The translations under genes were made by a program, and so were the position numbers. From Desulfoscipio sp. XC116 (GTDB lineage Bacteria > Bacillota > Desulfotomaculia > Desulfotomaculales > Desulfallaceae), in NCBI RefSeq assembly GCF_039851975.1, contig NZ_CP156660.1, positions 2,733,035 through 2,797,034 of the forward strand: a DNA stretch of 64,000 nt. The letters are read 5' to 3'. This document shows, piece after piece, positions 2,625-64,000 of this stretch. The notes below the pieces were generated by a model, which saw only the letters and a list, made by a program, of their open reading frames with translations, was not told the origin of the DNA and made no database searches. The stretch's first letter is position 1. Each line of letters begins with the position of its first letter.

Positions 2625-2632
2625 ATTGATCT

Positions 2633-46637: not shown

Positions 46638-46647
46638 CAGGGTCTCC

Positions 46648-47844: not shown

Positions 47845-47879
47845 CCCGGTTTTTGATTAACCCAGCTTTATTTATAGTC

Positions 47880-48698
47880 TTATAAAAACAATTCCGGCTC
47901 TTTTCGGTCGGCAAAACCAACCTCCAACTCAAGTTTATGTCTTAAATAATCTTCATCATCATAAAACTTGGCCTGAGTGGGACATTTTTTAATACAGGCG
48001 CCACATTTAATACAAATACCATTTAATTTAGATACATTTTCGTAATCAATGGAACCCATGGGGCAAACGTTTACACAAAGCTTACAGTCAATGCAATTGC
48101 TATTGGTTTTTGGAGTAACCTTTCTAATATCTACAGAGATTCCAGCTGTATTTTTAGGCATATAATATTTTCTATAAGGTTTATTTCCTTTTACAATAAT
48201 ATTTTCAATCTGTTCCTGAGTTATTATTTTAATATAAATTTTTTTGGCAAAATCACTCACTATAGCCATGTCTTTTTCATCCGGCCTGTTTTGGGCAAGA
48301 ACTTTTGAAAATGAATGTTCTCCTATAAAAGCTCCCCCCGCAATAACTTTAAAACCATTTAACTCAAGAATATCCTTTAATTCTATTGCAGCATCGTCAT
48401 AATTTCTATTCCCATATACAACTACAGAAACTGCCAGCGCACCATTACCTTTAATAGAATTTAAGTAATTCAGCAATACATTGGGGACTCTTCCCGCGTA
48501 GACCGGAACCCCAATAACAACAACATCTTCCGCTGTAAATGGTACCGCTTCTTTTCTGACCCCCGGCAGAGTAAAATCAATATTCTTTACAGCTATTTGC
48601 CCATTCATATTCTCTAAAATTTGATCGGCTATTCCGGATACTATTTTTTTAGTTGTACCTGTCGGGCTAAAATACATTGCATTTATCTTTCTATTCAT
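47880..48698 (-). CDS. EFR1-type flavodoxin-ferredoxin fusion
   Basis: This 272-residue fusion has an N-terminal flavodoxin domain (AMYFSPTGTTKKIVSGI phosphate loop, VVVIGVPVYAGRVPN) and a C-terminal 2[4Fe-4S] ferredoxin (CIDCKLCVNVCPMGSID and CIKCGACIKKCP). Such proteins are carriers in anaerobic electron transfer. It is followed 36 bases later by the DUF362 iron-sulfur gene and probably shares a transcript with it. A 14-bp perfect palindrome at 48775 lies in its upstream region. Confidence 0.9.
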   Translation of the reverse strand: MNRKINAMYFSPTGTTKKIVSGIADQILENMNGQIAVKNIDFTLPGVRKEAVPFTAEDVVVIGVPVYAGRVPNVLLNYLNSIKGNGALAVSVVVYGNRNYDDAAIELKDILELNGFKVIAGGAFIGEHSFSKVLAQNRPDEKDMAIVSDFAKKIYIKIITQEQIENIIVKGNKPYRKYYMPKNTAGISVDIRKVTPKTNSNCIDCKLCVNVCPMGSIDYENVSKLNGICIKCGACIKKCPTQAKFYDDEDYLRHKLELEVGFADRKEPELFL

Positions 48699-48774
48699 TT
48701 TAAGACCTCCAGACAGAAGTTTAAATAATTGATTTTTATAGATTTATAAATGTACGATAACGAAAATAATTAGT

Positions 48775-48788
48775 AATTGATATCAATT
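48775..48788. promoter_or_regulatory. 14-bp perfect palindrome, candidate operator
   Basis: AATTGATATCAATT is fully self-complementary and lies in the 339-base region between the divergent flavodoxin-ferredoxin and sensor kinase genes. It could bind a Fur-like or redox regulator of the ferredoxin gene. Position and symmetry are seen; the regulator is guesswork. Confidence 0.3.
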
Positions 48789-49037
48789 TAAGAATTCGCT
48801 AAAATATTCCCTTCTCCTTTACGGTTCGAGTAATTTTTACCAAATTAAAGGAGATGCGGATTTACCCAATGATGTGCATTCCCCGCAAACTTAATACTCA
48901 CCAGCGTTAATTGACTATCCACACCAAGCTTAAATTATACCGGCAATTATAAAATAAACTTAATTTTAATCCTTTCAACTGTTTTTTATATTAAATGTGT
49001 TAAAATTATATTTATAACTTCACAGGGGGAGATATTA

Positions 49038-50636: not shown

Positions 50637-50748
50637 TAGACTCGTTCAGCTAAAGCTAAACATCGGGACTTCAGACGGGGATGCTGCCTCACCTGAAGTA
50701 GGCATAGGAACTACCACTTATAAAAGTGGCAGTCTTGGAATCTGATAA
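50636..50748 (+). repeat. Three-hairpin repeat, copy E
   Basis: Starts at the stop codon of the sensor kinase (TAGACTCGTTCAG) and ends CTTGGAATCTGATAA. Stems: GTTCAGCT/AGCTAAAC (one mismatch), CTTCAG/CTGAAG and CCACTT/AAGTGG. It sits between the kinase and its response regulator, so the two-component transcript includes it. Confidence 0.88.
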
Positions 50749-50772
50749 TTCTAATGTATTAGGGGCGAAAAA

Positions 50773-52218
50773 ATGAAACCGCATATTTTAGTTATAGACG
50801 ATGAAGTTGAAGTCGGTACTTTCTTTGCTTTTTTTTTGGAAGAACAAAAAAATTGTCAAGTAACCGTGGCTAATTCAGGCAGTGAGGCGATGAAAGCAAT
50901 CAGCGGTTCATCATTTAACCTGGCACTGGTGGATCTAAAGCTGCCTGACAATGACGGTATAAGTTTACTAAAAGAGATAAAGAATCGGCAGCCTTTTTGC
51001 CCGGTTATCATCATGACCGGCTATAGTACCGTAAAATCCGCTGTCCAAGCGGTTAAGCTGGGAGCTTTCGATTATATTGAAAAACCTTTTGACGAACTGG
51101 ATCAGCTGGAGGCAAGTATCGACAGGGCTTTGGGAAAGTACCAGATCCACAGGGATGTTATTGATTCCGAGCTGCTTCAAGAGGCCCGAAGCCTGGGAAT
51201 TGTTACAAGCCCGGATAGCCCCTTGTTTCATGTACTGTCACTGGCCCAAAAGATAGCTCCTAAAAACATTACCGTACTGCTAAGCGGGGAAACAGGTACC
51301 GGCAAGGAAGTCTTAGCCAGATTTACACATTTTAACAGCCCACGGGCAAACAAACCTTTTTTAGGCGTTAACTGCGGTGCTTTTACCGAAACCCTTTTAG
51401 AAAGCGAGCTTTTTGGCCACGAAAAGGGGTCTTTTACCGGTGCGCATGGAGCTCGCAAGGGCATATTCGAGATAGCCGACGGAGGAACTCTCTTTTTAGA
51501 TGAGATAGGTGAAGCAAGTCCCACTATCCAGGTAAAGCTGCTGCGCGTATTGGAAACCGGGGAATTTATTCGTGTCGGCGGCGAAACAACCCGTAAAACA
51601 AATACCCGCATAGTTGCGGCAACCAATATCAATTTAAAGGATGCCGTTAACAAAGGAAAATTTCGCCAGGACCTTTTTTATCGTCTGGATGTGGTAAGTT
51701 TTAACTTGCCTCCTTTACGGGAGCGCGTCTGTGATATACCCCCTTTAGTTGAACATTTCATAGCTAAAAACACTGAAGAAAAAATCAAATGCACTCCGGA
51801 AGTACTTGAGCTTCTAAAAGCCTATGCCTGGCCGGGTAATGTAAGAGAGCTGTCAAACGTGATAACCAGAGCAATCGCGTTTAAAAGTTCCGATTATATA
51901 GGAGTTGAGTCGCTGCCGGAAAAGATTACCGGCATAAAATTTGGTTCCTACCCTCCTCCTGTCAACAACAAAGCGATGATCGATTTGGAATGTTTGATAA
52001 ACTGGTGGGGCGGTTTACTGCCTCCCTTGCTGGTTCAGATGCCAAGCCTCGACCTGGAAAGAGTACGAAACTCCATTAAAGATGTAGAGGCGGGAATTAC
52101 CAGGAAGGTTATAGAACATTTTTTGCAAGAACCCGGCAGTACATACGCCGGGATAGCGCAAAAGCTGGGAATTACACCAAGAGTGCTGCGCTATTTAATA
52201 AAGGAAAAAGGTAAGTGA
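50773..52218 (+). CDS. NtrC-type sigma-54-dependent response regulator
   Basis: This 481-residue activator has a receiver domain (HILVIDDEVEVG, acceptor Asp in LALVDLKLPDNDG, Lys in YIEKPFDE), an AAA+ domain with Walker A GETGTGKE and ESELFGHEKGSFTGA, which gives GSFTGA instead of the usual GAFTGA sigma-54 contact loop, Walker B GGTLFLDEIGE, and a Fis-type helix-turn-helix (TYAGIAQKLGITPRVLRYLIK). A segment of about 60 residues before the HTH is longer than usual. It should activate the sigma-54 promoter found 255 bases downstream. The TGA stop lies inside repeat copy F. Confidence 0.93.
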   Translation: MKPHILVIDDEVEVGTFFAFFLEEQKNCQVTVANSGSEAMKAISGSSFNLALVDLKLPDNDGISLLKEIKNRQPFCPVIIMTGYSTVKSAVQAVKLGAFDYIEKPFDELDQLEASIDRALGKYQIHRDVIDSELLQEARSLGIVTSPDSPLFHVLSLAQKIAPKNITVLLSGETGTGKEVLARFTHFNSPRANKPFLGVNCGAFTETLLESELFGHEKGSFTGAHGARKGIFEIADGGTLFLDEIGEASPTIQVKLLRVLETGEFIRVGGETTRKTNTRIVAATNINLKDAVNKGKFRQDLFYRLDVVSFNLPPLRERVCDIPPLVEHFIAKNTEEKIKCTPEVLELLKAYAWPGNVRELSNVITRAIAFKSSDYIGVESLPEKITGIKFGSYPPPVNNKAMIDLECLINWWGGLLPPLLVQMPSLDLERVRNSIKDVEAGITRKVIEHFLQEPGSTYAGIAQKLGITPRVLRYLIKEKGK

Positions 52219-52330
52219 GCTTGTTCAGCTAAAGCCAAACATCAGTACTTCAAATGGAGATTCTACCCCACCTGAAGTAAAAACAGGAGCTCCCACTGAT
52301 AAAAGCGGGAATCTTGGCATTTGATAAAAA
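52215..52330 (+). repeat. Three-hairpin repeat, copy F
   Basis: Left end AAGTGAGCTTGTTCAG contains the stop codon of the response regulator. Stems 2 (CTTCAAATGG...CCCCACCTGAAG) and 3 (CTCCCACT/AGCGGGAA, weakened) follow. The right end TTTGATAAAA merges with the terminator at 52321. Confidence 0.88.
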
Positions 52331-52361
52331 CCGGCACTTAAACAGTGCCGGTTTTTATCAA
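52321..52361 (+). terminator. 17-bp perfect terminator hairpin after the response regulator
   Basis: 52321-52337 (TTGATAAAAACCGGCAC) pairs perfectly with 52345-52361, loop TTAAACA. The left arm uses the last bases of repeat copy F, so the terminator seems built on the repeat end. T-rich sequence is within and after the stem. Confidence 0.85.
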
Positions 52362-52472
52362 ATGCCGTTTTTTTGTTTATTCATCGCGGGGATGTGACAA
52401 AAAATCGGCACAAATAACATTATAATTACCGTGATTTGCCTTTAAAACCGCTATTGTTTGAATTATTTCAAA

Positions 52473-52488
52473 TGGCATGCTATTTGCT
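52473..52488 (+). promoter_or_regulatory. Sigma-54 (-24/-12) promoter of the molybdenum hydroxylase operon
   Basis: TGGCATGCTATTTGCT matches the sigma-54 consensus TGGCACnnnnnTTGCW with the GG and GC at the required 10-base spacing. It lies 39 bases before the xdhB-like start and after the terminator of a sigma-54 activator gene. TTTGAA/TTCAAA (52457-52472) abuts it but is too close to be a typical enhancer site. Confidence 0.85.
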
Positions 52489-52526
52489 CTAATTAAATAA
52501 TGATTTTTCATAAAGGAGGTTAGAGC

Positions 52527-53393
52527 ATGTATCTAGACTACTTAACACCGGAATCGATAAATGATGCGCTGCAGATTTTGCAGCAGCAAAAAGGAAAAGC
52601 TCGTATTATTGCCGGTGGAACCGACCTGTTACTGGATATAGAATCAAAGAAGCATAACCCCGAAGTACTGGTGGATATCACCCGGATACCGGAAATCAGG
52701 GGAATCCGAACCGAAGGAAACTTTTTAATTATCGGGGCGGGGGTTACGCATAATGAAGCAGCCAAATCAGCGTTGGTAAACGAAAAAGCACAGGTACTGG
52801 CTGAGGCCAGCAGAAGCGTAGGCTCATTGCAAATCAGGAATACCGCCACTATTGCAGGTAACGTGGTGAATGCACAGCCGGCCGCCGATGCCGCCGTTGC
52901 CCTGGTGGCCCTCGGGGCTACTGCTGTAATAACATCATCCGATTTCACAAGGGAGGTACCGGTAGAAGAACTGTATGCCGGGGTAGGCAAATCCAAGGTA
53001 AACAGCAATAATGAAATAGTAACCAAAATAATAATACCGGCCCTGCAGCCCGGTGAAGGTTCCGCCTTTACCCGGTTGGCCCAGCGCAAAGCACTGGCGC
53101 TTCCCATGTTAAATGTAGCGGTAATGGTATCTATTGCTGAAGATAAATTTCAACGAGTCAGTATAGTCATGGCTCCGGTAGGTCCGCAACCTGTACGGGC
53201 AAGCGACAGTGAAAATTTACTTAAAGGCGCGGCAGTAAATGAAGAAACAATTCAAAAGGCGGCGGAGGCCGCCCTGAATCACGCTAATCCCCGAAGCAGC
53301 GCTCTGCGCGGGTCTGCGGAATACCGCTGCGCAACATTAAAAGTTTTGGTTAGACGTGCCCTCGAAACGGCTGTGGCCCGTGCTCGAAATTAA
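52527..53393 (+). CDS. Molybdenum hydroxylase FAD-binding subunit (CoxM/XdhB type)
   Basis: This 288-residue medium subunit binds FAD and hands electrons from the iron-sulfur subunit to NAD or another acceptor. The FAD motifs are IIAGGTDLLLDIE (residues 29-41) and RNTATIAGNVVNAQPAADAA (about 105-125), followed by the CO-dehydrogenase flavoprotein C-terminal domain. AAAGGAGG precedes the ATG. It starts a three-gene operon (medium, small, large) behind a sigma-54 promoter. The order medium-small-large is common in clostridial xanthine dehydrogenase-like enzymes. Confidence 0.93.
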   Translation: MYLDYLTPESINDALQILQQQKGKARIIAGGTDLLLDIESKKHNPEVLVDITRIPEIRGIRTEGNFLIIGAGVTHNEAAKSALVNEKAQVLAEASRSVGSLQIRNTATIAGNVVNAQPAADAAVALVALGATAVITSSDFTREVPVEELYAGVGKSKVNSNNEIVTKIIIPALQPGEGSAFTRLAQRKALALPMLNVAVMVSIAEDKFQRVSIVMAPVGPQPVRASDSENLLKGAAVNEETIQKAAEAALNHANPRSSALRGSAEYRCATLKVLVRRALETAVARARN

Positions 53394-53421
53394 TGAAATA
53401 TTTTTGTAAGGAGGGATTGGT

Positions 53422-53907
53422 ATGAATGAAAAAAATGTTAAATTCACACTTAACGGTAAACCCGTAACATTAACAGTTTCACCTTCAGCTACGTTACTGG
53501 ATATCATTCGTGACGAATTAAAACTTACGGGAACCAAAAGAGGCTGCGGCAAAGGAGAATGCGGTGCATGTACAGTAATTATGGACGGTATTGCAGTTAA
53601 TTCCTGCCTGATCCCGATAATGAAAGTTGCCGGATGCCATGTTGAAACCATTGAAGGTATCGGTAACCAGGAAAAGCCGCACCCGGTACAGGAAGCATTT
53701 ATGGACCTGGGGGCTATTCAATGCGGTTTTTGTACTCCAGGGATGATTATGTCTTCCAAGGCCCTGTTGGACAAGACGCCGAACCCCGACCGCGGACAAA
53801 TCAGGGAAGCCATATCAGGCAATATCTGCCGTTGTACGGGGTATGTCAAAATTGAAGCAGCTGTTCAAGCTGCAGCCGAAAAAGTCAAAGAGGAAATTTC
53901 CAAGTAA
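53422..53907 (+). CDS. Molybdenum hydroxylase 2[2Fe-2S] subunit (CoxS/XdhC-like small subunit)
   Basis: This 161-residue subunit has an N-terminal plant-type [2Fe-2S] domain (GCGKGECGACTV, then C in NSCLIP) and a C-terminal [2Fe-2S] domain (CGFCTPGM and CRCTGY). It transfers electrons between the molybdopterin and FAD subunits. Start is ATG 53422 with AAGGAGGG upstream. It lies 28 bases after the FAD subunit gene and 16 bases before the large subunit gene. Confidence 0.95.
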   Translation: MNEKNVKFTLNGKPVTLTVSPSATLLDIIRDELKLTGTKRGCGKGECGACTVIMDGIAVNSCLIPIMKVAGCHVETIEGIGNQEKPHPVQEAFMDLGAIQCGFCTPGMIMSSKALLDKTPNPDRGQIREAISGNICRCTGYVKIEAAVQAAAEKVKEEISK

Positions 53908-53923
53908 AGGAGGGGATAAAAGC

Positions 53924-56194
53924 ATGAAGGAATACAAAATTGTAGGGAAAAGCATTCGTCGGCTTGATGCCTGGGAAAAATCAACCGGAACGGGAACTTT
54001 TACGACTGACATTTACTTGCCCGGCATGCTGTTCGGCAAAGTGCTGCGCAGTCCGTACCCCCATGCCAGAATTAAAAAAATTGACACTGCCAAAGCCGAA
54101 CAGTTGCCGGGGGTAGAAGCCGTTGTATGTTACAAAAATTCCACCAGAGTAAAATTCAACACTTCGGCCACCATGACAACAACTGTTCCGCCCATGAAAC
54201 CGGTTTTAGACCAGTACATTTTTGACAACGTAGTACGGTACGTCGGGGACGAAGTGGCCGCGGTCGCTGCTGTTGATGAAAGAATAGCTCTCCAAGCCCT
54301 TGAACTAATTGAAGTGGAATACGAACAACTGCCTGCAGTGTACGATGCCAAACAAGCCATGACCCCGGATGCTCTTGAGATCCACAGCGACTGTCCGGCC
54401 GGTAAGAATATACCGGGAGAAATGATTCACATGGAAATGGGCGATCTGGAGCAGGGTTTTAATGAAAGTGATCTGATTTTTGAAGAAGAATTTAAGCTGC
54501 CCATTGTTAAACAGGTTCAAATGGAAACTCAAGCAGCCGTGGCGCAAGCGTCTATTGACGGCAGTATTACCGTTTATTCCACTACCCAAACTCCGCACCC
54601 ATCCGCCCAAATACTGGCACATATTTTCCAACTGCCGGTAAGCAAAGTGCGCGTACTAAATCCTCCATACCTGGGGGGCGGTTTCGGAGTTCGCATCGGC
54701 CTTAGCGCTAAGGCTGAAGCTATTGCGACAGAACTGGCCATGAAAACGGGAAAACCCGTAAAGGTAGTCTATGACCGTAAAGAAGACTTTACTGCCTCTG
54801 ATACCAGACATGGCGGCTACGTTACCGTAAAACTGGGAGTAAAAAATGACGGCGTTTTCCACGCTTTAGAATTAAAATCAAATCTGAACACCGGAGCGTA
54901 TTGCAGCTTTGGCGTAGAGACTGTCGGCGTACTCGGGGCAATGGGACTCTCAGTTTACAGAATACCTCACCAGGTCTACAACGGCCACAGTACCTACACA
55001 AACTGCACTCCGGCCGGAGCCATGCGCGGTTTCGGCAACCCCCAGGCAATGTTCGCCATAGAATCCGTGGTTGATATGGCCGCCGAACGTCTGGGTCTGG
55101 ATGCAAAAGAATTACGGCTTAAAAATATAATCAAGCCCGGAGATAAATGGGTATTGCCTTACCCATGCAAAAGCAGCGGATTACCCGAATGCATTGAAAA
55201 GGGTGCCCGGGAAATCGGCTGGAATAACAGAGGAAAACTAAACAAGCCCGGAGATAAAATCCGCAGGGGAATAGGTATGGGTGTGGGTACACACGTAAGC
55301 AACTCCTGGCCCTTCTGTGTTGATTTCTCCAACGCCCTGGTAACCGTAAAAAGCGATGGAACTATTAAGGTTGCATCAGGTGTGGTGGATATGGGAACCG
55401 GTACCCATACAAGTCTTGCTCAGATTGCGGCGGAAACGGTCGGTATGTATGATATGAGCAAAGTATCGGTAGCTTTTGCGGATACCGAGTCAACACCCTT
55501 TGAAATCGGCAGCCACGCCAGTCGTTCATGTTATACCGCCGGACAGGCTGTTTATCTTGCCGCACAGGATGCTCGCACCCAGGTACTGGAATATGCCGCG
55601 GATTATTTAAAAGAGCGCATAGAATATCTTGATATTAAAGACGGAATAATCTATAGCAACGATGAGGCAAGAATGCCTTTGGCCGAACTGACGGAATACG
55701 CTCATCTGCACAATAAACAGTTTTTGGGAGTGGGCAAAGTCGTTCCATCCAACGCCCCCCCGTGGGAAGCACACTTTGCTGAAGTAGAGGTCGATACTGA
55801 AACAGGTCAGGTCCGGGTAATTAAACTGGTAGCGGCACACGACGTTGGGAAGGCCATACATCCTGCGATCGTAGAAGGGCAGCTTGAGGGAGGTCTGGTC
55901 CAGGGTATGGGGTACGCCCTGAGCGAAGAAATCCGTTATAACGACAAGGGTAAACAATTACATGACGGTATCCATAAGTATATGCTTCCCACCGCTGAAG
56001 ATATTCCGGAAATTAAGGTAATTCTTGTGGAGCCGTATGACCCCAGCGGCCCTTACGGCGCAAAAGGAGTGGGTGAAACCAGTCTGGTGCCCACCGCGCC
56101 CGCCATTACCAATGCCATATATGACGCCATCGGTATCCGCTTCAAGGAAATACCGGTAACTGAAGAAAAAATTTTTAAAGCTTTATATAAGTAA
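53924..56194 (+). CDS. Molybdenum hydroxylase large (molybdopterin-binding) subunit, xanthine dehydrogenase-like
   Basis: This 756-residue catalytic subunit hydroxylates an N-heterocycle or aldehyde at a Mo centre. Landmarks: GGGFGVR (about residue 250; many XDHs have GGGFGGK), TPAGAMRGFGNPQ binding the cofactor, and GAKGVGETSLVPTAPAI with the catalytic Glu near the C-terminus. The substrate is not clear from sequence: xanthine dehydrogenase, nicotinate- or aromatic-type hydroxylase are all possible. The maturation genes opposite include a YqeB/EF2563 homologue, which is linked to selenium-dependent Mo hydroxylases. ATG 53924 follows AAAGGAGGGG; the longer reading overlaps the small subunit. 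Confidence 0.92.
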   Translation: MKEYKIVGKSIRRLDAWEKSTGTGTFTTDIYLPGMLFGKVLRSPYPHARIKKIDTAKAEQLPGVEAVVCYKNSTRVKFNTSATMTTTVPPMKPVLDQYIFDNVVRYVGDEVAAVAAVDERIALQALELIEVEYEQLPAVYDAKQAMTPDALEIHSDCPAGKNIPGEMIHMEMGDLEQGFNESDLIFEEEFKLPIVKQVQMETQAAVAQASIDGSITVYSTTQTPHPSAQILAHIFQLPVSKVRVLNPPYLGGGFGVRIGLSAKAEAIATELAMKTGKPVKVVYDRKEDFTASDTRHGGYVTVKLGVKNDGVFHALELKSNLNTGAYCSFGVETVGVLGAMGLSVYRIPHQVYNGHSTYTNCTPAGAMRGFGNPQAMFAIESVVDMAAERLGLDAKELRLKNIIKPGDKWVLPYPCKSSGLPECIEKGAREIGWNNRGKLNKPGDKIRRGIGMGVGTHVSNSWPFCVDFSNALVTVKSDGTIKVASGVVDMGTGTHTSLAQIAAETVGMYDMSKVSVAFADTESTPFEIGSHASRSCYTAGQAVYLAAQDARTQVLEYAADYLKERIEYLDIKDGIIYSNDEARMPLAELTEYAHLHNKQFLGVGKVVPSNAPPWEAHFAEVEVDTETGQVRVIKLVAAHDVGKAIHPAIVEGQLEGGLVQGMGYALSEEIRYNDKGKQLHDGIHKYMLPTAEDIPEIKVILVEPYDPSGPYGAKGVGETSLVPTAPAITNAIYDAIGIRFKEIPVTEEKIFKALYK

Positions 56195-56246
56195 CTTCAT
56201 TCCCCATATTTAGTACTGTAAAACTGCGCTGACTCCCACTTAAATA

Positions 56247-56363
56247 AAAGGAAGTATCGCAAAACTACTTTCTTAGCATAATGAGCAACGCTCCTTGGTG
56301 TATCTTATAACAAAAAAAATGTTGCACAACGAATTATTCAGTTCGTTGTGCAACAAACCCTTT
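56247..56363 (+). repeat. MITE-like element, copy M3
   Basis: 117 bp with terminal inverted repeats: left AAAGGAAGTATCGCAAAAC at 56247, right (minus strand from 56363) AAAGGGTTTGTTGCACAAC. The left flank ACTCCCACTTAAATAAAAG resembles the left half of hairpin 3 of the three-hairpin repeat, so it may have inserted there. It lies between the convergent xdh and maturation operons. Confidence 0.6.
56312..56354. terminator. 13-bp perfect hairpin between convergent operons
   Basis: GTTGCACAACGAA (56321-56333) pairs with 56342-56354. The eight A residues at 56312-56319 form a T tract on the minus strand, so it terminates the maturation operon that ends at 56370. It is part of element M3. Confidence 0.75.
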
Positions 56364-56369
56364 CTATGT

Positions 56370-57392
56370 TTAATTTTTTCCAAAACCACAAACAGGATAA
56401 CGACATTCTTCGCAAACCTGACAAAGGCCACCTACACCCAAACTAGTGACATCCTCCCTGGAAACTTTTTCTCCCGCCAGAACGCGAGGCAATATTATAT
56501 CAAAAATCGTTGCTTTAGAAAAAATAACGCAAGCGGGTAACCCCATAATAACCGTTCCCTCCAGTTCCGCCAGCATAAACATAGCTCCCGGCAACACGGG
56601 AGAACCATAGGTAATTACCTTTGCTCCGGTGTCTTTGATAGCCCCGGAAGTATTATCGTCCGGGTCAACCGACATGCCTCCGGCAACCAGGATAAGGTTC
56701 CGGCCCCTCTTGTGCATATCTAAGACGGTTTGAGTAATCTTTTCAGTATCATCCGGCAAATATGTTTGTTCTTTGATCGAGTAGCCAAAGAAATCCAGTT
56801 TGTTTTTTAATGTAGAGCCAAAAGCGTCTTCTATGCGCTTGTAGTACACTTCATTTCCGGTAATAATTACGCCAATATCAAATGGTTTATAGTCCGATAT
56901 TTTTATAATCCAACCATATTTTTCGGCCACCTCATCTACTTCCGACAAGGCACTTGCATGGATTGTAAGGGGTATCACCCTGGTAGCGGCAACTGTTTTT
57001 CCCTTTTCAACCGGCTGGTTATCATGCAACGTGCTGAGGCACATATTCCAAATAGAATTAATGTGATTTACTCCGCTTTTGTTTATTCTTAACAAACCTC
57101 TGCTATTTGCCTTAAAAGCAATTTTCCCCTCATGAGGATCACTATAAACAATATCCGCTCCGGTAATAGCCCTGGCGATTCGTTCCGCCGCCTCATTTTC
57201 ATGAATATGTCCCTCCGGAGGCTCCCAAACATAAATATGCTCCTTTCCCATACTTAACAATATGGGAATGTCTTCAGCTGAAATCACATGACCCCTTTTA
57301 AAAGCCGGGCCTTTGAATTCACCGGGAACTATCCTGGTTAGATCATGACTCAGCACCATGCCTATACTTTCTGCAACAGCTATTTTTTTCAT
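56370..57392 (-). CDS. Molybdopterin-binding protein (MoeA/MogA-related) with C-terminal Cys cluster
   Basis: This 340-residue protein has an N-terminal domain of unknown type (KKIAVAESIGMVLSHDLTRIVPG is typical of Mo-hydroxylase-linked MoeA-like proteins) and a C-terminal MoCF-biosynthesis fold (DIGVIITGNEVYYKRIED, LILVAGGMSVDPDDNTSGAI, LPGAMFMLAEL, GLPACVIFSKATIFD). It ends with a CQVCEECRYPVC cluster that may bind metal. It probably handles or inserts the molybdenum cofactor for the hydroxylase encoded opposite. It is the last gene of the maturation operon and is 57 bases after the short XdhC gene. Confidence 0.8.
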   Translation of the reverse strand: MKKIAVAESIGMVLSHDLTRIVPGEFKGPAFKRGHVISAEDIPILLSMGKEHIYVWEPPEGHIHENEAAERIARAITGADIVYSDPHEGKIAFKANSRGLLRINKSGVNHINSIWNMCLSTLHDNQPVEKGKTVAATRVIPLTIHASALSEVDEVAEKYGWIIKISDYKPFDIGVIITGNEVYYKRIEDAFGSTLKNKLDFFGYSIKEQTYLPDDTEKITQTVLDMHKRGRNLILVAGGMSVDPDDNTSGAIKDTGAKVITYGSPVLPGAMFMLAELEGTVIMGLPACVIFSKATIFDIILPRVLAGEKVSREDVTSLGVGGLCQVCEECRYPVCGFGKN

Positions 57393-57449
57393 ATTTTCAT
57401 CTCCATTGATATTAATATCAGACTGTAAAAAAACTTATTCATTAGCTTA

Positions 57450-57767
57450 TTAATCCGTGGCCGTACCATCAATAATTTCAATGTATACCGTGCCGGAACC
57501 ACCGCATATCATGCCTTCACCGGCCACTTCGCACTCCCAGAGAAACGGTGAACCTTTTGTTTTCAGCAGTTCCAAAGCTTTTTGTATGGCCTTGAGTTCA
57601 AGGATGCCCCCGCCAACGGTTCCTAAAATCTGGGTATTGGAATATACAAGCATTTTGGCACCCGCCTTCCGGGGAGTGGAACCGCTGGTTTGGCAAAGCG
57701 TAACAAGTACCGCCTCACTTCTGTCTCTATAAACATCTATAATAGCTTTTAAAATTTCCCGGTTCAT
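57450..57767 (-). CDS. XdhC/CoxI family protein, short form
   Basis: This 105-residue protein is the N-terminal XdhC_CoxI domain only: VLVTLCQTSGSTPRKAGAKMLV and ILGTVGGGILELKAIQKALEL are its signatures. XdhC proteins bind the molybdenum cofactor and help insert the terminal sulfur or selenium ligand. Standard XdhC also has a Rossmann domain, absent here. It overlaps the full-length paralogue by 4 bases (57764-57767), so the two form a coupled pair that may act as a split chaperone. Confidence 0.85.
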   Translation of the reverse strand: MNREILKAIIDVYRDRSEAVLVTLCQTSGSTPRKAGAKMLVYSNTQILGTVGGGILELKAIQKALELLKTKGSPFLWECEVAGEGMICGGSGTVYIEIIDGTATD

Positions 57768-58567
57768 TCCAACAGCCCCCCTTTCACCTCTCTCATGGTC
57801 CTGCCGTTTCCGTTATTTTCCCGCGCCACAATTTCGGCTAAAATACTTAAAGCAATTTCAGGGGGCTTTTGACCTCCAAGAGCGAGGCCAATTGGCGCCG
57901 CTATCTTGCGCAGATCCTCTCTACTAATCCCCTCGTTTTCAAGTGCTTTAAAAATTGATTTTACCTTGCTCTTGCTCCCAATCATACCGATGTAACGGGC
58001 CTGCGAACTAACGACAGATGCAAGACAGGTCTTATCGTACTCGTGCCCGCGAGTAACGATGATAACACTGGTAAAGGGATTTATTTTTTCTTTAATGAAT
58101 TCTTCCGACCAAACATCATTAAAATCCGCATATATCACTTCATGAGCCCAAGGAAATCGCTGCCTGCTGGCGAAATCCGGTCTATCGTCAATTACTAAAA
58201 CCTGATATCCCAAGATGGATGCCATCTGGGCCAGCGGCAGGGCTACATGCCCGCCACCGTAAATAATAATCCTTTTTTCCGGGAAATAAGCATCCTCCAA
58301 AATGATTGCTTTCGCTTCCTCCGAAAGCCGGTATTCTACTATATCGGTTTGAGAGACCGAGTCTTTAAATATAACCTTGGCCCGTTCTTCCGCCAATTGA
58401 TTTAAACAGTCTGCCCCCAGTGTTCCGTATTTTATCCCGTTATTACATACCAAAAAGCGGGACCCTTCCGGCAAACCCGATTCTCCTCCGCCATGTATGA
58501 GTGTATACATTACAGCCGGCACTCCGCTTTCAATGTTCTCCATTAACTTCTCAAAAATATTCCGCAT
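57764..58567 (-). CDS. XdhC family protein, full-length
   Basis: This 267-residue maturation factor has an N-terminal XdhC-type segment (VPAVMYTLIHGGGESGLPEGS, GIKYGTLGADCLN; more diverged than the short paralogue) and the C-terminal XdhC_C Rossmann domain (RIIIYGGGHVALPLAQMASILGYQVLVIDDRPDFAS, VIIVTRGHEYDKTCL, ARYIGMIGSKSKVK). It probably binds and modifies Moco before insertion into the hydroxylase. It starts 21 bases after the YqeB gene and overlaps the short XdhC gene. Confidence 0.92.
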   Translation of the reverse strand: MRNIFEKLMENIESGVPAVMYTLIHGGGESGLPEGSRFLVCNNGIKYGTLGADCLNQLAEERAKVIFKDSVSQTDIVEYRLSEEAKAIILEDAYFPEKRIIIYGGGHVALPLAQMASILGYQVLVIDDRPDFASRQRFPWAHEVIYADFNDVWSEEFIKEKINPFTSVIIVTRGHEYDKTCLASVVSSQARYIGMIGSKSKVKSIFKALENEGISREDLRKIAAPIGLALGGQKPPEIALSILAEIVARENNGNGRTMREVKGGLLE

Positions 58568-58588
58568 TAGCTATCACCCCGCGTAAAA

Positions 58589-59398
58589 TCAATTGTACGC
58601 TTGCGTCCCGCTTAAAACCCGGACTGCCTCAAGTGCTCCCCGCCCAATAGTCCAGGCCTTATCGGTAACGGAAAAACAAACCTGAGGTTTTTCTTCCGGA
58701 TGAATATCACCGGCTTTGATACCCTGGTTAACCATAAGCCCGTCCTTTAACAGTCCTCGGATGACTCCCGCAATCTGTGCTCTTACAGGATGACTGCCAA
58801 CCATAGCCACCACTTGCCCTTTTTTAACTATATCCCCGATCTTTAATTTGGTATCAAATCTGCCATCGGCGGGGGCACGGAGCAGCCTTTCCCGGGTATA
58901 ACCCAATTTATTACCGGGAATGCCGGTATCAGGTGTTGCCATGCCTTTATAAATGGGCTGCCCAAGCGCAGGCCCTCTTTTAGTTTCAATAACGGCATGT
59001 ACATCTGAACCCGCTTCAAAACCGGGACCCAGGGCAATCACCACATCCGAGTCGTTTAAGCTTGTTCCCATATTTTTTTTAATCATAGCAGCATCTATGA
59101 AAACTGACGGGCGATATTTTTGGAGCGTTTTTTCCCCGCGGGGGTCGACTATAACGGCAATTTCCCCCCGGTCAACAATTTGCATCGCTTTATCAAAGCT
59201 ATCCGCCAGGCGGCCCCATACACCTTCGATACAAATTTCCCCCTCATAAACCGCCTCTGCAAAAGAAACCATTCTGCGCACACAAGTAGGCTGTTCTATC
59301 TCGCTCATTACCACCCGGTACCCGGCTTCTCTGAAAACACAGGCAACACCGCTGGCAAGATCCCCCGCCCCCTTGATTAAAACGTAGTCAAAATTCAT
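58589..59398 (-). CDS. yqeB: EF2563/YqeB family selenium-dependent molybdenum hydroxylase maturation protein
   Basis: This 269-residue protein begins YVLIKGAGDLASGVACVFREAGYRVVMSEI, with a Rossmann-like N-terminus, and ends with a biotinyl/lipoyl-like barrel (GRFDTKLKIGDIVKKGQVVAMVG). EF2563 homologues are found with selenium-dependent molybdenum hydroxylases and are thought to deliver the labile selenium. The start at 59398 is chosen because AAGGAGTG precedes it. Two ModE-type palindromes lie in its upstream 149-base region, so it probably heads the operon yqeB-xdhC-xdhC short-moeA-like. Confidence 0.88.
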   Translation of the reverse strand: MNFDYVLIKGAGDLASGVACVFREAGYRVVMSEIEQPTCVRRMVSFAEAVYEGEICIEGVWGRLADSFDKAMQIVDRGEIAVIVDPRGEKTLQKYRPSVFIDAAMIKKNMGTSLNDSDVVIALGPGFEAGSDVHAVIETKRGPALGQPIYKGMATPDTGIPGNKLGYTRERLLRAPADGRFDTKLKIGDIVKKGQVVAMVGSHPVRAQIAGVIRGLLKDGLMVNQGIKAGDIHPEEKPQVCFSVTDKAWTIGRGALEAVRVLSGTQAYN

Positions 59399-59438
59399 TC
59401 TGCCGCACTCCTTTCGGATCAAGAAATCATTCCACCAT

Positions 59439-59462
59439 CGTTATTCTCGGCCCTAAATAACG
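59439..59462. promoter_or_regulatory. ModE-type operator, site 1
   Basis: CGTTAT (59439-59444) and ATAACG (59457-59462) with 12 bases between, total 24 bp. This is the half-site sequence and spacing of the Escherichia coli ModE operator (CGTTAT..ATAACG, 24 bp). It is 41 bases upstream of yqeB. Confidence 0.75.
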
Positions 59463-59504
59463 CGGCCAACAATTACCACCATTAGAAGAAAAGTAATCCA
59501 TCAG

Positions 59505-59528
59505 CGTTATTGGCACGCACATATAACG
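59505..59528. promoter_or_regulatory. ModE-type operator, site 2
   Basis: CGTTAT (59505-59510) and ATAACG (59523-59528), again exactly 24 bp, 66 bp from site 1. It lies between the modE-like gene and yqeB. Confidence 0.75.
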
Positions 59529-59547
59529 GCCTTAAAAAAATATTTTA

Positions 59548-59880
59548 TTATGACTCTTTAAAATGTTTTTCAAACAAAATATCGAGTGTTTCAGCCGCTT
59601 CCCGGTTAAAATTCAAGTATTTTTGCATTAATACCCGAGCTTCTTCAGTAAGGGATGAACCACCGCCGGAATTACCACCGATTTCACGCTGCAAAAGCTT
59701 AAAACCTAAATTACTCTCAAGCAAATTTATAAGCTTCCATGCTTTGCTGTAAGACATATTTAACTCCTGGGCCGCCATGCTCAAAGAGCCCAGTTTGTCC
59801 ACCTGACGGAGAAGTTGTAAAGGTCCTTCACCAAAAGCCTTTCCTTCGGTTTCCAGCCAAATCTTATACCGCAGGCGCAC
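59548..59880 (-). CDS. ModE-like molybdate-responsive regulator (DNA-binding domain only)
   Basis: This 110-residue winged-helix protein is the ModE/LysR-type DNA-binding domain: KAFGEGPLQLLRQVDKLGSLSMAAQELNMSYSKAWKLINLLES and LLQREIGGNSGGGSSLTEEAR are ModE signatures. It lacks the C-terminal MOP domains that bind molybdate, so effector binding needs another protein or a different mechanism. It lies between mocA and yqeB on the same strand, with two ModE-type palindromes directly downstream, suggesting it controls the next operon. Confidence 0.9.
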   Translation of the reverse strand: MRLRYKIWLETEGKAFGEGPLQLLRQVDKLGSLSMAAQELNMSYSKAWKLINLLESNLGFKLLQREIGGNSGGGSSLTEEARVLMQKYLNFNREAAETLDILFEKHFKES

Positions 59881-59957
59881 CCCATTTCCCCCCAGAAAGC
59901 ATATTCCCCACAGACTAACTATCTGATTATATTCTACATTATACCCGATTATCCTAC

Positions 59958-60563
59958 CTAAGAAGAAAATTTACCGCCTACCGCAAGGAAATCCTCCGGC
60001 CGATCCACGTCCAATAAAATACCGGGGTCATCCACATTAACCCGGCAAACATCCTGATAATGCGCTTTAAGTATAGAGCCGGCCCCCACATCTCCGGAAA
60101 GTTTTAGCATTTCGGGGAAAAGCACCTTATCAAACAACACCGGATGCCCGCGTTTACCGCGATAAACGGGGGCCGCAATCAGACATGAGTTTTTCAGATA
60201 TTGACACAAAATCTCGTTAATGGTTTGCGGACGAATTAGCGGCATGTCCCCGAGAAATACCATTACCGCACTGGTGAAATGCGGTAAGCTGGCTGCAGCC
60301 TGCTTAATTGAAGAGCTAATGCCCTCGGAAAAGTTAGTATTTTCAACTATCTTAATTGGATATTTCTGCAATATAGGCATTAGCTTTTCCTTATGATTGC
60401 CCACAATCACCGCTACCGTTTTTATATTTGAATTCAAAACGTTTTTAATAACATGCTCTATAACAGGCCGCCCCGATATTTCAAGCATAAGCTTGTTTTT
60501 TCCTTTCATTCTGCTTGAATAACCTGCCGCGAGAACTACTGCTTCAACGTGCACCAAAGACAT
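59958..60563 (-). CDS. mocA: Molybdenum cofactor nucleotidyltransferase (MocA-like)
   Basis: This 201-residue nucleotidyltransferase has the MobA/MocA N-terminus AVVLAAGYSSRMKGKNKLML (NTP-binding), then VVIVGNHKEKL-like and VMVFLGDMPLI (metal-binding Asp) and GKRGHPVLFD. The GYSSRM and SxxPxxR patterns suit the MocA group that adds CMP to molybdopterin, the dinucleotide form used by xanthine dehydrogenase-family enzymes in many bacteria. It starts the minus-strand maturation genes, 77 bases before modE. Confidence 0.85.
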   Translation of the reverse strand: MSLVHVEAVVLAAGYSSRMKGKNKLMLEISGRPVIEHVIKNVLNSNIKTVAVIVGNHKEKLMPILQKYPIKIVENTNFSEGISSSIKQAAASLPHFTSAVMVFLGDMPLIRPQTINEILCQYLKNSCLIAAPVYRGKRGHPVLFDKVLFPEMLKLSGDVGAGSILKAHYQDVCRVNVDDPGILLDVDRPEDFLAVGGKFSS

Positions 60564-60713
60564 ACAACTCCTCTGTTTTTCATTAGTATCAATTACCTTA
60601 AAAAATAGCGTCGTTAGTATCGTAAATAACCCTAACCCATTTTCCGAATTTACATGCGCTCTTGAGATTTGACATGTTAATATATATTTCTACTCAAAAA
60701 ATGTGACCCCTGC

Positions 60714-60756
60714 AAAAAAAGACATATCCCTCAAACAATGATATGAGGGATATGTC
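60714..60756 (-). terminator. Minus-strand rho-independent terminator
   Basis: GACATATCCCTCA (60721-60733) pairs perfectly with 60744-60756; seven A residues at 60714-60720 make a T run on the minus strand. It would end the FAD oxidoreductase transcript about 300 bases after its stop, beyond the repeats. Confidence 0.7.
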
Positions 60757-60782
60757 AGGCAACATTGGACAGTCGGAACAGC

Positions 60783-61005
60783 GAACCTGTTCAGCTAAAG
60801 CTGAACAGCGGGGCTTTAGATGGAATTCTACCCCGCCTGATAGGAAGGGCTGTTGCACAACGGGCTAAATAGTTCATAGTGCGGCAGCCTTTTGTAAAGA
60901 TACCGGATTATTATCGGAATAATTAGCTGCACCCGGGAAAGGGGGGGCGCTCACTACTCTAAGAAAGTAGTTTTACGACACTCCCTTCTGGAATTCGATA
61001 AAAAT
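60783..61005 (+). repeat. Three-hairpin repeat, copy G, interrupted by MITE M4
   Basis: Left part 60783-60844 holds hairpin 1 (GTTCAGCT/AGCTGAAC) and a shortened hairpin 2. MITE M4 (60845-60987) replaces hairpin 3, and the normal end resumes as CTGGAATTCGATAAAAA (60988-61004). Confidence 0.75.
60845..60987 (-). repeat. MITE-like element, copy M4 (143 bp)
   Basis: Left end AAGGGCTGTTGCACAAC and right end (minus strand) AAGGGAGTGTCGTAAAAC form imperfect terminal inverted repeats. Orientation is opposite to M1-M3. Its left half contains the GCACTATGAACTATTTAGCC core (reverse strand), also found in repeat copy D at 40838. Confidence 0.65.
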
Positions 61006-61065
61006 GCTATGGCATTAAAATATTCATAAATGCAGGTTGGTTTGCTATTTGATTGTAATTAATAA

Positions 61066-62259
61066 TCAATATACTTCACTTTCCAATAATAATTTGTTTT
61101 CCGCAAACCGTCTAATGGAAAACGGAGTTAAATCTATCGTTTCGTATTTCCCTAAGCGAATAAGTTCTGATACACATTTACCGGCTGCAGGTCCTTGCTG
61201 AAATCCATGACCGCTAAAACCTGTGATTAAATAATAACCATTCATATCGGGATGATCGCCAATGATCGCGTTATGGTCTATATAATTATATTCATAGAGA
61301 CCGGCCCAGCCCCGTCCCAACTTTAGTTGATCAAAATTAGGAGAGCGTTCAGCTAATAAAGGCCATACTTCTTCGTTGAAATAGGATCTGTTTAGAGTAA
61401 AATCAAAATTGAAGCTGTTCTCATCCTGCACTGTTTCATTAGACCCCTCACGCGAGCCAATAATAACTTTAAGTCCTTCGCCCTGGAAGTATGTGCCCAG
61501 ATAGTCAAAAACAAATGGGATATCAGTTTTAAACGGCATTGCTAAGTCGACACAATAAACCTGTTTACGGAAAGGCCGCACCGGTATGTCTATCCCCATT
61601 GTCCTACTTATTTCACCGGACCAGGCTCCGGCTGCATTTACCACAATTGGCGCATGATATTCTTCACCGGTTTCCAATTTCACACCCTTTACCTGATGAA
61701 GTCCATCGGTCAAAATGGCTTGCACATTCTCGTAAACGTACTCCACTCCTAATCGCTTAGCATGTCTCACATACCACTGCAGAACGCAATAAGGATCCGC
61801 ATTTCCGCCTTCCACATCAAAAACGGCACCCGTCAAATCATCAACATCCATTTCCGGGACTAAAGACTTTGTTTCTTCAGGAGTCAGTAATTGCACATTT
61901 ACGCCAAGGCTTTTCTGTACCGTCATGTTATCTTTCAAAATAGATAACGCTTGTTCATTAGCTAAATACAGATAACCATGTTGTTTAAAATCAATCACTG
62001 CCAGTTCATCATCCAGAGCCATTTCCTTTTCAAAATTTTTAAATATCTGCACACCGAGTTTGGACATTTGAATATTCCCCGGAATACTGAATGTTTGCCG
62101 AAATCCTCCGTAACAGCGTGGAGTAGAGGAATATTCATACATACGATCTTTTTCAAAAACAACTACGCTTCCCGTATATCCGTCTTTGCGTAAGTTGTAG
62201 GCTAAACTTGATGCCATGATCCCGCCACCAACAATAATCAAATCATATTTTTTAATCAT
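61066..62259 (-). CDS. FAD-dependent oxidoreductase of the DAO/sarcosine oxidase family
   Basis: This 397-residue flavoenzyme begins IIVGGGIMASSLAYNL (GxGxxA FAD loop), has the DAO signature further on (VVNAAGAWSGEI), and a C-terminal GRGWAGLYEYNYIDHNAIIGDHP and GFSGHGFQQGPAAGKCVSEL motif. The family oxidises amines such as sarcosine, glycine or N-methylated amino acids, giving an imine and reduced FAD. The exact substrate is unknown. ATG 62259 follows GGGGAGG; the reading to 62385 is leader sequence. Two palindromes of GntR type lie upstream (62307, 62352). It stands alone. Confidence 0.85.
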   Translation of the reverse strand: MIKKYDLIIVGGGIMASSLAYNLRKDGYTGSVVVFEKDRMYEYSSTPRCYGGFRQTFSIPGNIQMSKLGVQIFKNFEKEMALDDELAVIDFKQHGYLYLANEQALSILKDNMTVQKSLGVNVQLLTPEETKSLVPEMDVDDLTGAVFDVEGGNADPYCVLQWYVRHAKRLGVEYVYENVQAILTDGLHQVKGVKLETGEEYHAPIVVNAAGAWSGEISRTMGIDIPVRPFRKQVYCVDLAMPFKTDIPFVFDYLGTYFQGEGLKVIIGSREGSNETVQDENSFNFDFTLNRSYFNEEVWPLLAERSPNFDQLKLGRGWAGLYEYNYIDHNAIIGDHPDMNGYYLITGFSGHGFQQGPAAGKCVSELIRLGKYETIDLTPFSIRRFAENKLLLESEVY

Positions 62260-62306
62260 AACAACCTCCCCGCATAATTTAAAGGAACAAAGATAATAGC
62301 TTTTAA

Positions 62307-62319
62307 TTGGTCCAACCAA
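62307..62319. promoter_or_regulatory. GntR-type palindrome, site 1
   Basis: TTGGTCCAACCAA is a TGGT-N3-ACCA dyad of the form bound by FadR/FCD-type GntR repressors. It lies 48 bases upstream of the FAD oxidoreductase start. Confidence 0.5.
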
Positions 62320-62351
62320 CGTAATCCAATGTTTCGAAAAAAAATATATAT

Positions 62352-62362
62352 TGGTCAGACCA
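62352..62362. promoter_or_regulatory. GntR-type palindrome, site 2
   Basis: TGGTCAGACCA, centre about 44 bp from site 1, close to four helical turns. No GntR-family gene is in the window. Confidence 0.5.
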
Positions 62363-62484
62363 TTTAAGACAAAATTCCACCCCAAATTTAATTTCCCTGC
62401 CTAACTCAAAAATTTTTTCGTTAAAATGTATTTTTCAAGGCTATAGTTGCAGCAGCTCCACATATCACATGCCCGACATTAATA

Positions 62485-62520
62485 AGAACCCCTCGGTAAT
62501 TTAGACTTACGAGGGGTTCT
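62485..62520 (-). terminator. Hairpin after the LigD-like gene
   Basis: AGAACCCCTCG (62485-62495) and CGAGGGGTTCT (62510-62520) form an 11-bp perfect stem, extended by GTAA/TTAC. It lies 74 bases after the ligD-like stop on the minus strand. The T tract is weak. Confidence 0.55.
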
Positions 62521-62593
62521 CAATATAAAATCCTATCTATTTGAGAGCGTTTACTATTATGGTAACGGCCTCAATTCTCACCCAATATAATGT

Positions 62594-63568
62594 TCATTTA
62601 AGCTGCTGATAATTCCGGAAAAAATCCTGCCAGGGATCATCGCCGTTGATCCTCCGGAGCGCCTCCGCCATATTGACGCCGCCGGGAGCTACCATGTCCA
62701 GTTCCTTCCAAGAGATGGGCATGGATACCCCGGCCCCTTTTCTCGCCCTTAGGGAATAAGGGGCAATGCTGGTAGCGCCTCTGCCGTTGCGAATCCAGTC
62801 GATGAATATCTTGTTGCTGCGCTTGGCCTTTCGGACATTGCTTGTATAGCGGTCAGGCCATTTCCGCTCCATCACCCGGGCAATGCGCCTGGCAAAATCA
62901 TAGAACACATCCCAAGAAACGGCAGGTTTCAAAGGTACGACCACATGGTAGCCTTTACCACCGCTGGTCTTGAGATACGAGTTCAGGGAAAGTTCGTCCA
63001 GTACATTTTTCATATCCCGCACTCCCTGACGTACTCTGATCAGATCCATTCCCTCATCCGGGTCCAGATCAAATACCATCAAATCGGGCTTTTCCAGCTC
63101 GTCCACACGACTTCCCCAGGTATGAAATTCCAGGGTGCCCATTTGCGCTTCGTATATGAGCCCCAACGGGTTATCAATATAGAAGTAATCTTCCGTTTCT
63201 CCTGCACTGGAGGAAACAGAGGTGATAACGATTCCCCGGCTGCCCGGACCGGGATGCTTCTTATAGAAGCAAGCCTGTGCTATGCCCTTGGGACAGCGGA
63301 CAATGCTGAGGATTCTGTGGCTTACATAGGGCAGCATGCGCTCCGCAACCTCGGTGTAATACCGGATCACATCCCCTTTGGTGATTTCCGGGTCGGTAAA
63401 GATCACCTTGTCCGGATTGGTAATCTTAATTCCCTCGATCATGATACTGTTGGCGTTTGCTTCCACGGCACTCTCCGCTTCCCCTGCTTCAATTTCCGTC
63501 ATGGTGCGTCCGGTTCCGATACTGGTGGTAAGTGTAGAAATCCCCTCGCCGGCTTTGAGGGTACGCAT
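62594..63568 (-). CDS. LigD polymerase domain protein (NHEJ primase-polymerase)
   Basis: This frame of 324 codons encodes the polymerase (PolDom) part of bacterial NHEJ enzyme LigD: KITNPDKVIF opening, HTWGSRVDELEKPDLMVFDLDPDEG (metal-binding DxD), YLKTSGGKGYHVVVPLK, and IFIDWIRNGRGATSIAPYSLRA. These residues catalyse NTP insertion at broken ends. The ligase and phosphoesterase domains of full LigD are missing or damaged: decayed phosphoesterase coding sequence lies just upstream. The annotated ATG 63568 has no good ribosome-binding site, so the gene may be a remnant rather than a functional single-domain protein. No Ku gene is in the window. Confidence 0.75.
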   Translation of the reverse strand: MRTLKAGEGISTLTTSIGTGRTMTEIEAGEAESAVEANANSIMIEGIKITNPDKVIFTDPEITKGDVIRYYTEVAERMLPYVSHRILSIVRCPKGIAQACFYKKHPGPGSRGIVITSVSSSAGETEDYFYIDNPLGLIYEAQMGTLEFHTWGSRVDELEKPDLMVFDLDPDEGMDLIRVRQGVRDMKNVLDELSLNSYLKTSGGKGYHVVVPLKPAVSWDVFYDFARRIARVMERKWPDRYTSNVRKAKRSNKIFIDWIRNGRGATSIAPYSLRARKGAGVSMPISWKELDMVAPGGVNMAEALRRINGDDPWQDFFRNYQQLK

Positions 63569-63670
63569 CCTTTTCTTTCAATAAAAGCCGGTTGTTTTTG
63601 GTCTCCACCCGCTCTCCAAGCGCACCAGAGTCCACTTTCCCTTAAGCCAGCCTTCGTCCTTTCAATTATT
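63569..63670 (-). pseudogene. Frameshifted LigD phosphoesterase-domain remnant
   Basis: Read on the minus strand, pieces of the LigD phosphoesterase-like domain appear in three frames: GKWTLVRLESG, then KNNRLLLKEKDAYPQS, then AGEGISTLTTSIGTG entering the polymerase frame. This needs at least two frameshifts, so the upstream half of the gene is a pseudogene. Confidence 0.65.
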
Positions 63671-63839
63671 GTTTCCAATTGAATGAAAAAAATCCGCCGG
63701 CAGTCGAATACCCTTCCATGCTCATACCGGCAAGCTTAAGCCCCGGCATTTCACTGCAGAAATCGACATTGTTTTTAATATTATTTTGCAGGGAATGTCA
63801 CAACTCACCAAGAAATATGTAATCCCGAGGTGATACGCA

Positions 63840-64000
63840 ATGTCTCGGGAGGAAATAGTCTTAGAGATAGTACGTCTGCGTGCCAAGATGCATGACCTGG
63901 TAAACGTAGGCGCTGATTATGCAAAATTGCTTAAAGCCAGCCAGGAGTTGGACAACTATATAGTCATGTACCACAGGGCTACCGAAGAAATGGCCTATGG
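63840..64000 (+). CDS. Spo0E-like sporulation phosphatase (partial at window edge)
   Basis: The gene begins at ATG 63840, with GAGGTGAT upstream, and runs off the window after 53 codons. LEIVRLRAKMHDLV and KASQELDNYIVMYH are the Spo0E family signature (SQELDxxI), a small two-helix phosphatase that dephosphorylates Spo0A~P and delays sporulation. It indicates a spore-forming host. Most of the short protein (usual length 50-85) should already be visible. Confidence 0.85.
   Translation, partial: MSREEIVLEIVRLRAKMHDLVNVGADYAKLLKASQELDNYIVMYHRATEEMAY

Follow-up and report, generated by a model that had tools for sequence, protein, structure and literature searches.

The locus and its regulator

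In Desulfoscipio sp. XC116, a run of genes for the maturation of molybdenum hydroxylases lies next to a small ModE-like regulator, raising the question of how these genes are controlled and which signal the regulator would follow. An earlier note, made on the same 64,000-nucleotide stretch of DNA (hereafter the window), had proposed that two palindromes upstream of the maturation operon are ModE-type operators. The run is read leftward on the minus strand and comprises a gene encoding a MocA-like nucleotidyltransferase (59958..60563; TIGR03310, 183.4 bits for a cut-off of 186.45, and PF12804), modE-N (59548..59880), the palindromes, referred to as operators A and B, yqeB as the first gene downstream of them (58589..59398; TIGR03309, 316 bits, cut-off 220), a gene encoding an XdhC-type maturation factor (57764..58567; PF13478, PF02625), a gene encoding an XdhC_CoxI N-domain protein (xdhC_N, 57450..57767; PF02625) and, last, a gene encoding a MoCF_biosynth protein with a molybdopterin-binding fold (56370..57392; PF00994). 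The mocA-like gene lies 77 bp upstream of modE-N on the same strand, and the two are separate genes in the window. These profile matches to YqeB, XdhC, MoCF_biosynth and MocA-like proteins bear out the description of the run as an operon for molybdenum-hydroxylase maturation. A set of molybdenum-hydroxylase genes (52527-56194, plus strand), the molybdenum subunit of which was identified by family search and the other two subunits by eye, heads towards the operon from the other side.

A Moco riboswitch at the yqeB operon was considered and rejected, as there is none in positions 44000-64000 of the window; four are present elsewhere in the genome. A paralogue of the window MoCF protein is encoded behind a Moco riboswitch in the same genome (L048, C1:315541), which may mean that the two copies are controlled differently.

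The modE-N gene starts with GTG and encodes a single-domain, winged helix-turn-helix regulator of 110 amino acids, matched by TIGR00637 (66.6 bits) and PF00126 (46.7 bits). The TIGR00637 match (E 1.6e-18) extends over positions 3-91 of 100 and its score lies below the curated cut-off of 98.5 bits. Sequence searches against solved structures gave PDB 2ijl as the best match (E 7e-10), with ModE itself (1o7l/1b9m) at E 1.4e-7. From its sequence, the DNA-binding domain thus appears clearly homologous to the ModE family (TIGR00637/COG2005). Profile searches of the protein found neither a second domain nor a Mop domain, in agreement with the claim that the local ModE consists of the DNA-binding domain only. 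It is the only ModE-N gene in its genome at E 1e-3.

Two palindromes in the gap between modE-N and yqeB

A pattern search recovered both CGTTAT-N12-ATAACG palindromes as exact matches, at the claimed positions 59439-59462 and 59505-59528. The gap that holds them measures 149 bases as stated (59399-59547), given the yqeB ATG at 59398; an alternative TTG start at 59422 would reduce it to 125 bases. Operator A (59505..59528, minus strand; CGTTATATGTGCGTGCCAATAACG in the direction of yqeB) is separated by 19 bases from the modE-N stop codon, a placing found in most site-bearing relatives, and lies 106 bp upstream of the yqeB ATG. Operator B (59439..59462, minus strand; CGTTATTTAGGGCCGAGAATAACG in the direction of yqeB) lies 40 bp upstream of the same ATG, and the closest named relative (L049) has its sole nearby site at the same place as operator B (+84). 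Base composition gives a chance expectation of 9e-6 exact sites per gap, and this gap holds two. The window contains no other exact match; with up to two mismatches allowed, it holds six sites against a shuffled mean of 3.07, six being reached in 11 of 100 shuffles, so that only the exact sites stand out. An RNA hairpin in place of a DNA site was rejected by inspection, with many inner positions and the right halves of B-type sites left unpaired.

Sites elsewhere in the genome

The scan for further 24-bp sites that the earlier note had called for was carried out on the entire genome (4.26 Mb) and returned four exact sites, compared with about 0.31 expected from composition. Three of the four precede molybdenum-hydroxylase maturation genes, in keeping with the proposed link between the palindrome and molybdenum genes: besides operators A and B, a third site (C1:46641) lies before a second xdhC pair, inside a molybdenum-hydroxylase island. 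The fourth (C1:1594275) lies inside a histidine-kinase gene and is presumably due to chance. The reversed-pattern control gave two exact sites in this genome and, at up to one mismatch, 24 sites versus 13 for the pattern. Among the nine sites with one mismatch, one (L005) lies in coding sequence within the second xdhC operon, and none of the other eight precedes a gene recognised by eye as molybdenum-related. The organism's own ModA-type transporter loci (L108/L109) were rejected as targets, being without a site at up to two mismatches, and thus the regulon in this organism looks confined to maturation operons.

Two further observations were made on these loci. The XdhC gene that follows the third exact site is broken into two frames that overlap (L209:6817-7615, about C1:46.8-47.6 kb), an apparent frameshift or sequencing error. 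An excisionase-type HTH protein (named by eye) is encoded divergently from the second ModA-like transporter (L109, about C1:345 kb) and is possibly a different regulator for molybdenum or tungsten.

Conservation of the probable operator in relatives

The window ModE-N was matched in 28 of 41 near genomes (E 1e-3) and in 65 of 299 genomes of the phylum (E 1e-20), its own genome counted both times, and it also had matches in 34 named loci. At 63 ModE-N loci, 19 exact sites have a spacer of 12, against one over the 30 other spacers between 0 and 30 and none for the reversed control; the window's own locus belongs to this set and is the source of two of the 19. At up to one mismatch the counts are 29 at spacer 12 and 19 over the 30 other spacers together. 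A second set of 70 genes, in which some lineages are repeated (the site has the same sequence in L115, L129 and L054), gave 12 exact sites at spacer 12, none at other spacers and none for the reversed control, and 28 versus 9 at up to one mismatch. Position is conserved as well: near 132 ModE-N genes, 36 of the 56 sites with up to one mismatch start 4-26 bases past the modE-N stop codon. A site within 700 bp is far from universal, being exact at only 29 of the 132 genes and present at up to one mismatch at 52. Counted over all 41 near genomes, the excess of exact sites over the reversed pattern is modest (23 versus 13).

The co-directional gene that typically follows the site is yqeB (L016, L017), a MoCF gene (L049), tupB (L030, L033), moaA (L023, L024, L039) or a FecCD-type transporter gene (L052, L053, L055, L056, L058), and xdhC is also among the genes preceded by an operator. 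The binding protein of the L052 transporter matches HI_1472 at E 6.6e-19, with stronger E-values for some other iron-type binding proteins. Sites remote from modE-N were found before yqeB (L085) and before modA (L086). The eight genomes with the most closely related regulators contain 11 exact sites. Nine of these lie before genes of the kinds just named or before modE-N itself (G006, G022), the remaining two being the histidine-kinase site and one in G012 (C19). No site was found at L022, L025 and L026, where the next gene is opposite in direction.

At two loci of relatives (L088, L091), B-type sites (CGTTATGC...) are located about 0.75-1.2 kb upstream of genes named by eye as tungsten-type aldehyde oxidoreductases.

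Counts over whole genomes prove little by themselves. The two copies in a 149-base gap, the gene context and the conservation in relatives carry the case for operators. From this evidence in the sequences, the two palindromes are very probably the operators of the adjacent ModE-N.

Recognition helix and operator base

Across 79 gene-site pairs, the recognition-helix residue that follows MSY varies with base 7 of the half-site: arginine is paired with G at 67 of 68 half-sites, and any other residue with a base other than G at 83 of 90. This association is not built in, since base 7 lies outside the search pattern. The window ModE-N, with MSYSK, has A and T at base 7 of its half-sites, as its class predicts. 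On the tree the association comes down to a single change, so that the Fisher value is without independent replication.

The T tract and promoter-like sequences

Operator A is preceded by a T7 tract (59534..59540, minus strand; A7 on the plus strand) that ends 5 bp upstream of it and is kept in relatives, where most such operators have a T5-8 tract at a distance of about 5 bp on their upstream side; operator B is without one. We listed 45 sites by hand (33 A-type, 12 B-type), leaving out near-duplicates (L029, L036, L061, L063, L075), weak sites (L070, and L076 and L077 near modE) and exact sites lacking a T tract or a clear regulated gene (L081, L082, L087 twice, L088, L091, L094), the last of which would lower the following fractions if added. 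At each of positions -11 to -8 relative to the operator, T is found in 28-30 of the 33 A-type and 11-12 of the 12 B-type sites. A run of at least five T occurs within 20 bases upstream in 26/33 and 11/12, respectively, and downstream in 3/33 and 1/12; control stretches contain such a run in 23 of 376 cases after other stop codons and in 25 of the 257 that precede other genes. The second set agrees (21/30 upstream versus 4/30 downstream), and the tract travels with the operator when the latter is far from modE-N (L049 at +84, L021 and L062 at +65).

Interpretation of the tract as generally being the U-tract of a terminator was rejected, because 25 of 39 tracts are without a preceding hairpin (mean -1.6 versus -1.0 kcal/mol for shuffled sequences); clear exceptions include L079, L076, L077 and L074. 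In two Megasphaera loci (L072, L074), inverted repeats that differ in sequence are found upstream of modE-N, between a TATAAT promoter and the pre-operator T tract; only that of L074 was scored in the hairpin scan.

Promoters were scored with hand-written matrices. The mean score peaks when the -10 element falls on operator positions 15-20 and the -35 element thereby on the T tract; at A-type sites position 15 (1.36) is only narrowly ahead of position 18 (1.21), and since the half-sites themselves look like a -10, part of any high score within the operator is to be expected. Two loci without a T tract, L042 and L001, carry TTGACA and TTGCAA, respectively, in the -35 register. Putative promoters in another register, with the -10 likewise in the operator, are seen in G011 (TTGACA-N18-TATACT; 13.6, above all shuffled best scores) and in G006 (TTCACA-N17-TATACT; 10.3, within the shuffled best range of up to 11.8). 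In the window, operator A offers a poor -10 (GCCAAT), and the hexamers at operator B (TTGTTG-N18-GAGAAT and TTGGCC-N15-GAGAAT) reach 4.0 and 4.8, short of the median of 6.3 for shuffled sequences. A consensus promoter scan of the modE-N/yqeB gap gave no sigma-70 match; the same scan detected a weak terminator-like hairpin at 59479-59462.

Candidates for signal sensing

The earlier note had called it unclear how a regulator of this kind would sense molybdate; this holds and can be sharpened, with no Mop protein detected in the genome by profile search and gene fusions pointing to MocA and YqeC. The Mop profile TIGR00638 has no match in the genome, and the sole match to TOBE (PF03459; 22.4 bits, cut-off 22.3) falls in an ABC ATPase that by eye is of the sugar type. 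A census of 69 ModE-N genomes, made up of 62 of the 65 phylum genomes (G017, G025 and G074 left out) and seven near genomes, found no Mop match at E 1e-3 in 50, weak matches in eight and matches over the cut-off in 11; checked separately, G017 gave a weak match and G025 none. A separate Mop protein, found neither here nor in 50 of these 69 genomes, is therefore not the general sensor.

Fusions of MocA and ModE-N in a single reading frame were found in 5 of 398 genomes (G110, G156, G188, G297, G335). A sixth case comes from an Oscillospiraceae MAG (L066), the record of which is truncated at the 5' end. The six fusion loci (L134, L066, L210-L213) belong to several families, and their number is a lower bound, given the search threshold of E 1e-25; two of the six were examined with family profiles. 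The two MocA fusions placed on the tree represent two events. None of the six has an operator nearby, the sequence upstream of L066 being cut off. ModE-N is fused to YqeC in three genomes (L141, L145, L166; TIGR03172 well over its cut-off), which represent one event on the tree, and a site lies just upstream of two of them, with one mismatch in one case and two in the other. A further fusion joins ModE-N to a TupA-like tungstate-binding domain (L137, minus strand, 1869-3053; 154.7 bits, cut-off 400). It faces a second, unfused ModE-N gene in convergent orientation, and some 100 bp upstream of that gene lies an exact operator.

Fusion to MocA, YqeC and a TupA-like domain suggests that ModE-N may read cofactor maturation. 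Since no Mop domain was detected in the genome, we propose, speculatively, that the signal would pass through a cofactor-maturation enzyme, with MocA as the first candidate, and that the operon would be repressed or released by the supply of molybdenum cofactor and not by free molybdate. A broader picture has a low probability only, because operon neighbours can fuse without any sensing role: by analogy with BirA, anaerobic Bacillota might possess a ModE-type repressor that lost its molybdate domain and is governed by MocA, the Moco cytidylyltransferase, or, in another lineage, by YqeC, with T tract and operator forming a composite element through which the maturation genes follow cofactor supply.

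Proposed mode of control and alternative explanations

Taken together, these data make it probable that a ModE-N dimer binds both palindromes and represses yqeB-xdhC-xdhC_N-MoCF and, in trans, the second xdhC operon; passage of the signal through a cofactor-maturation enzyme is the speculative part of this reading. Repression would occur by occlusion, the bound protein covering a promoter -10 that lies inside the operator, with the -35 register marked by the T tract at operator A or located just upstream of operator B. Occlusion is favoured because the T tract stands in the -35 register with the -10 inside the operator. It is unlikely that the bound regulator acts instead as a roadblock for transcripts coming from upstream of mocA/modE-N, with the T tract assisting release through its weak rU-dA hybrid. 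The nearly fixed register of the tract before the operator, at any distance from modE-N, would suit such attenuation, as would operators located roughly 14-28 bp ahead of start codons in several loci and a Megasphaera promoter (TGGAAA-N17-TATAAT, score 9.7) 58 bp upstream of the site. That score, however, lies within the shuffled best range, most tracts follow no hairpin, and a promoter accounts better for L042 and L001, which lack the tract but have hexamers beginning with TTG in the -35 register.

Activation of a downstream promoter, as by E. coli ModE at moaA, for which activation is possible (PMC2408646), is quite improbable here: the position of operator A, 106 bp from the yqeB ATG, leaves room for a promoter, but in several relatives a mere 14-28 bp or so separate the end of the operator from the start codon, too little to hold one. 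We regard it as very unlikely that the palindromes are chance occurrences without function; the greater frequency of the reversed control at up to one mismatch in this genome and the one exact site in four that falls in the histidine-kinase gene could be read in that way, but spacing and position are fixed in relatives. Unless the profiles missed a Mop-like fold, classical sensing of molybdate through a separate Mop protein is hardly conceivable for this regulator, with no TIGR00638 match and only a marginal TOBE match in the genome and with 50 of the 69 ModE-N genomes likewise without a Mop match, even if 11 have a match over the cut-off and eight more a weak one.

Comparison with known systems

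The likeness to the E. coli operator put forward in the earlier note is confirmed: both exact sites of the window agree in half-sites and spacing with CGNTAT-N12-ATANCG, the core of the consensus reported for E. coli ModE, ATCGNTATATA-N6-TATATANCGAT (PMC545781, PMC2700814). Both systems share a ModE-type wHTH, a 24-bp operator span and molybdenum-related targets. Unlike E. coli ModE, the window ModE-N has no di-Mop sensor domain, the two window sites do not retain the inner ATA/TAT of the E. coli operator, and the targets are maturation genes of molybdenum hydroxylases; a T tract accompanies most of the operators compared here, which come from ModE-N genomes.

A single-domain ModE with unclear sensing and a ModE near such a maturation gene cluster are both already known from the literature. 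The single-domain ModE of Desulfovibrio consists of the DNA-binding domain alone, and its sensing was called not clear; its operator, CGGTCACG-N14-CGTGACCG, precedes mod genes, and Mop-integrase chimeras occur in the modABC cluster (PMC545781). The window regulator shares the isolated DNA-binding domain but not the operator, the Desulfovibrio sequence having no match in the window at up to three mismatches. The ModE-like protein of Campylobacter jejuni is also said to be without a metal-binding domain. It is described as one regulator for both molybdenum and tungsten transporters (Taveirne 2009), targets unlike the operon of the window. In Enterococcus faecalis, the ModE protein EF2572 is encoded in a selD/xdhC/HP1-HP2 cluster, some families of which are fused with HP1 or HP2 (PMC2432076). 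As in the window, a ModE stands beside genes for molybdenum-hydroxylase maturation, which is selenium-dependent in E. faecalis; in contrast to the present case, the accessible text of that paper reports neither an operator nor a regulon for E. faecalis. The best structural match, PDB 2ijl, is a molybdenum-binding transcriptional repressor of 135 amino acids, a length that suggests a single domain.

A literature search, with subscription journals and RegPrecise mostly outside its scope, found no report of the operator in these bacteria, of the T tract, of a Mop census or of a MocA-ModE fusion. The BirA-type enzyme-repressors, which offer an analogy, combine a cofactor enzyme and a wHTH in one protein, as the MocA-ModE-N fusions would; in the window MocA and ModE-N are separate genes. 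To the single-domain ModE, known since at least 2004 (PMC545781), the present analysis adds a putative phylum-wide operator, concrete sensor candidates in MocA, YqeC and TupA-like domains, a recognition-helix residue paired with an operator base, and an operator signature usable for finding regulated molybdenum, tungsten and molybdenum-hydroxylase genes in anaerobes.
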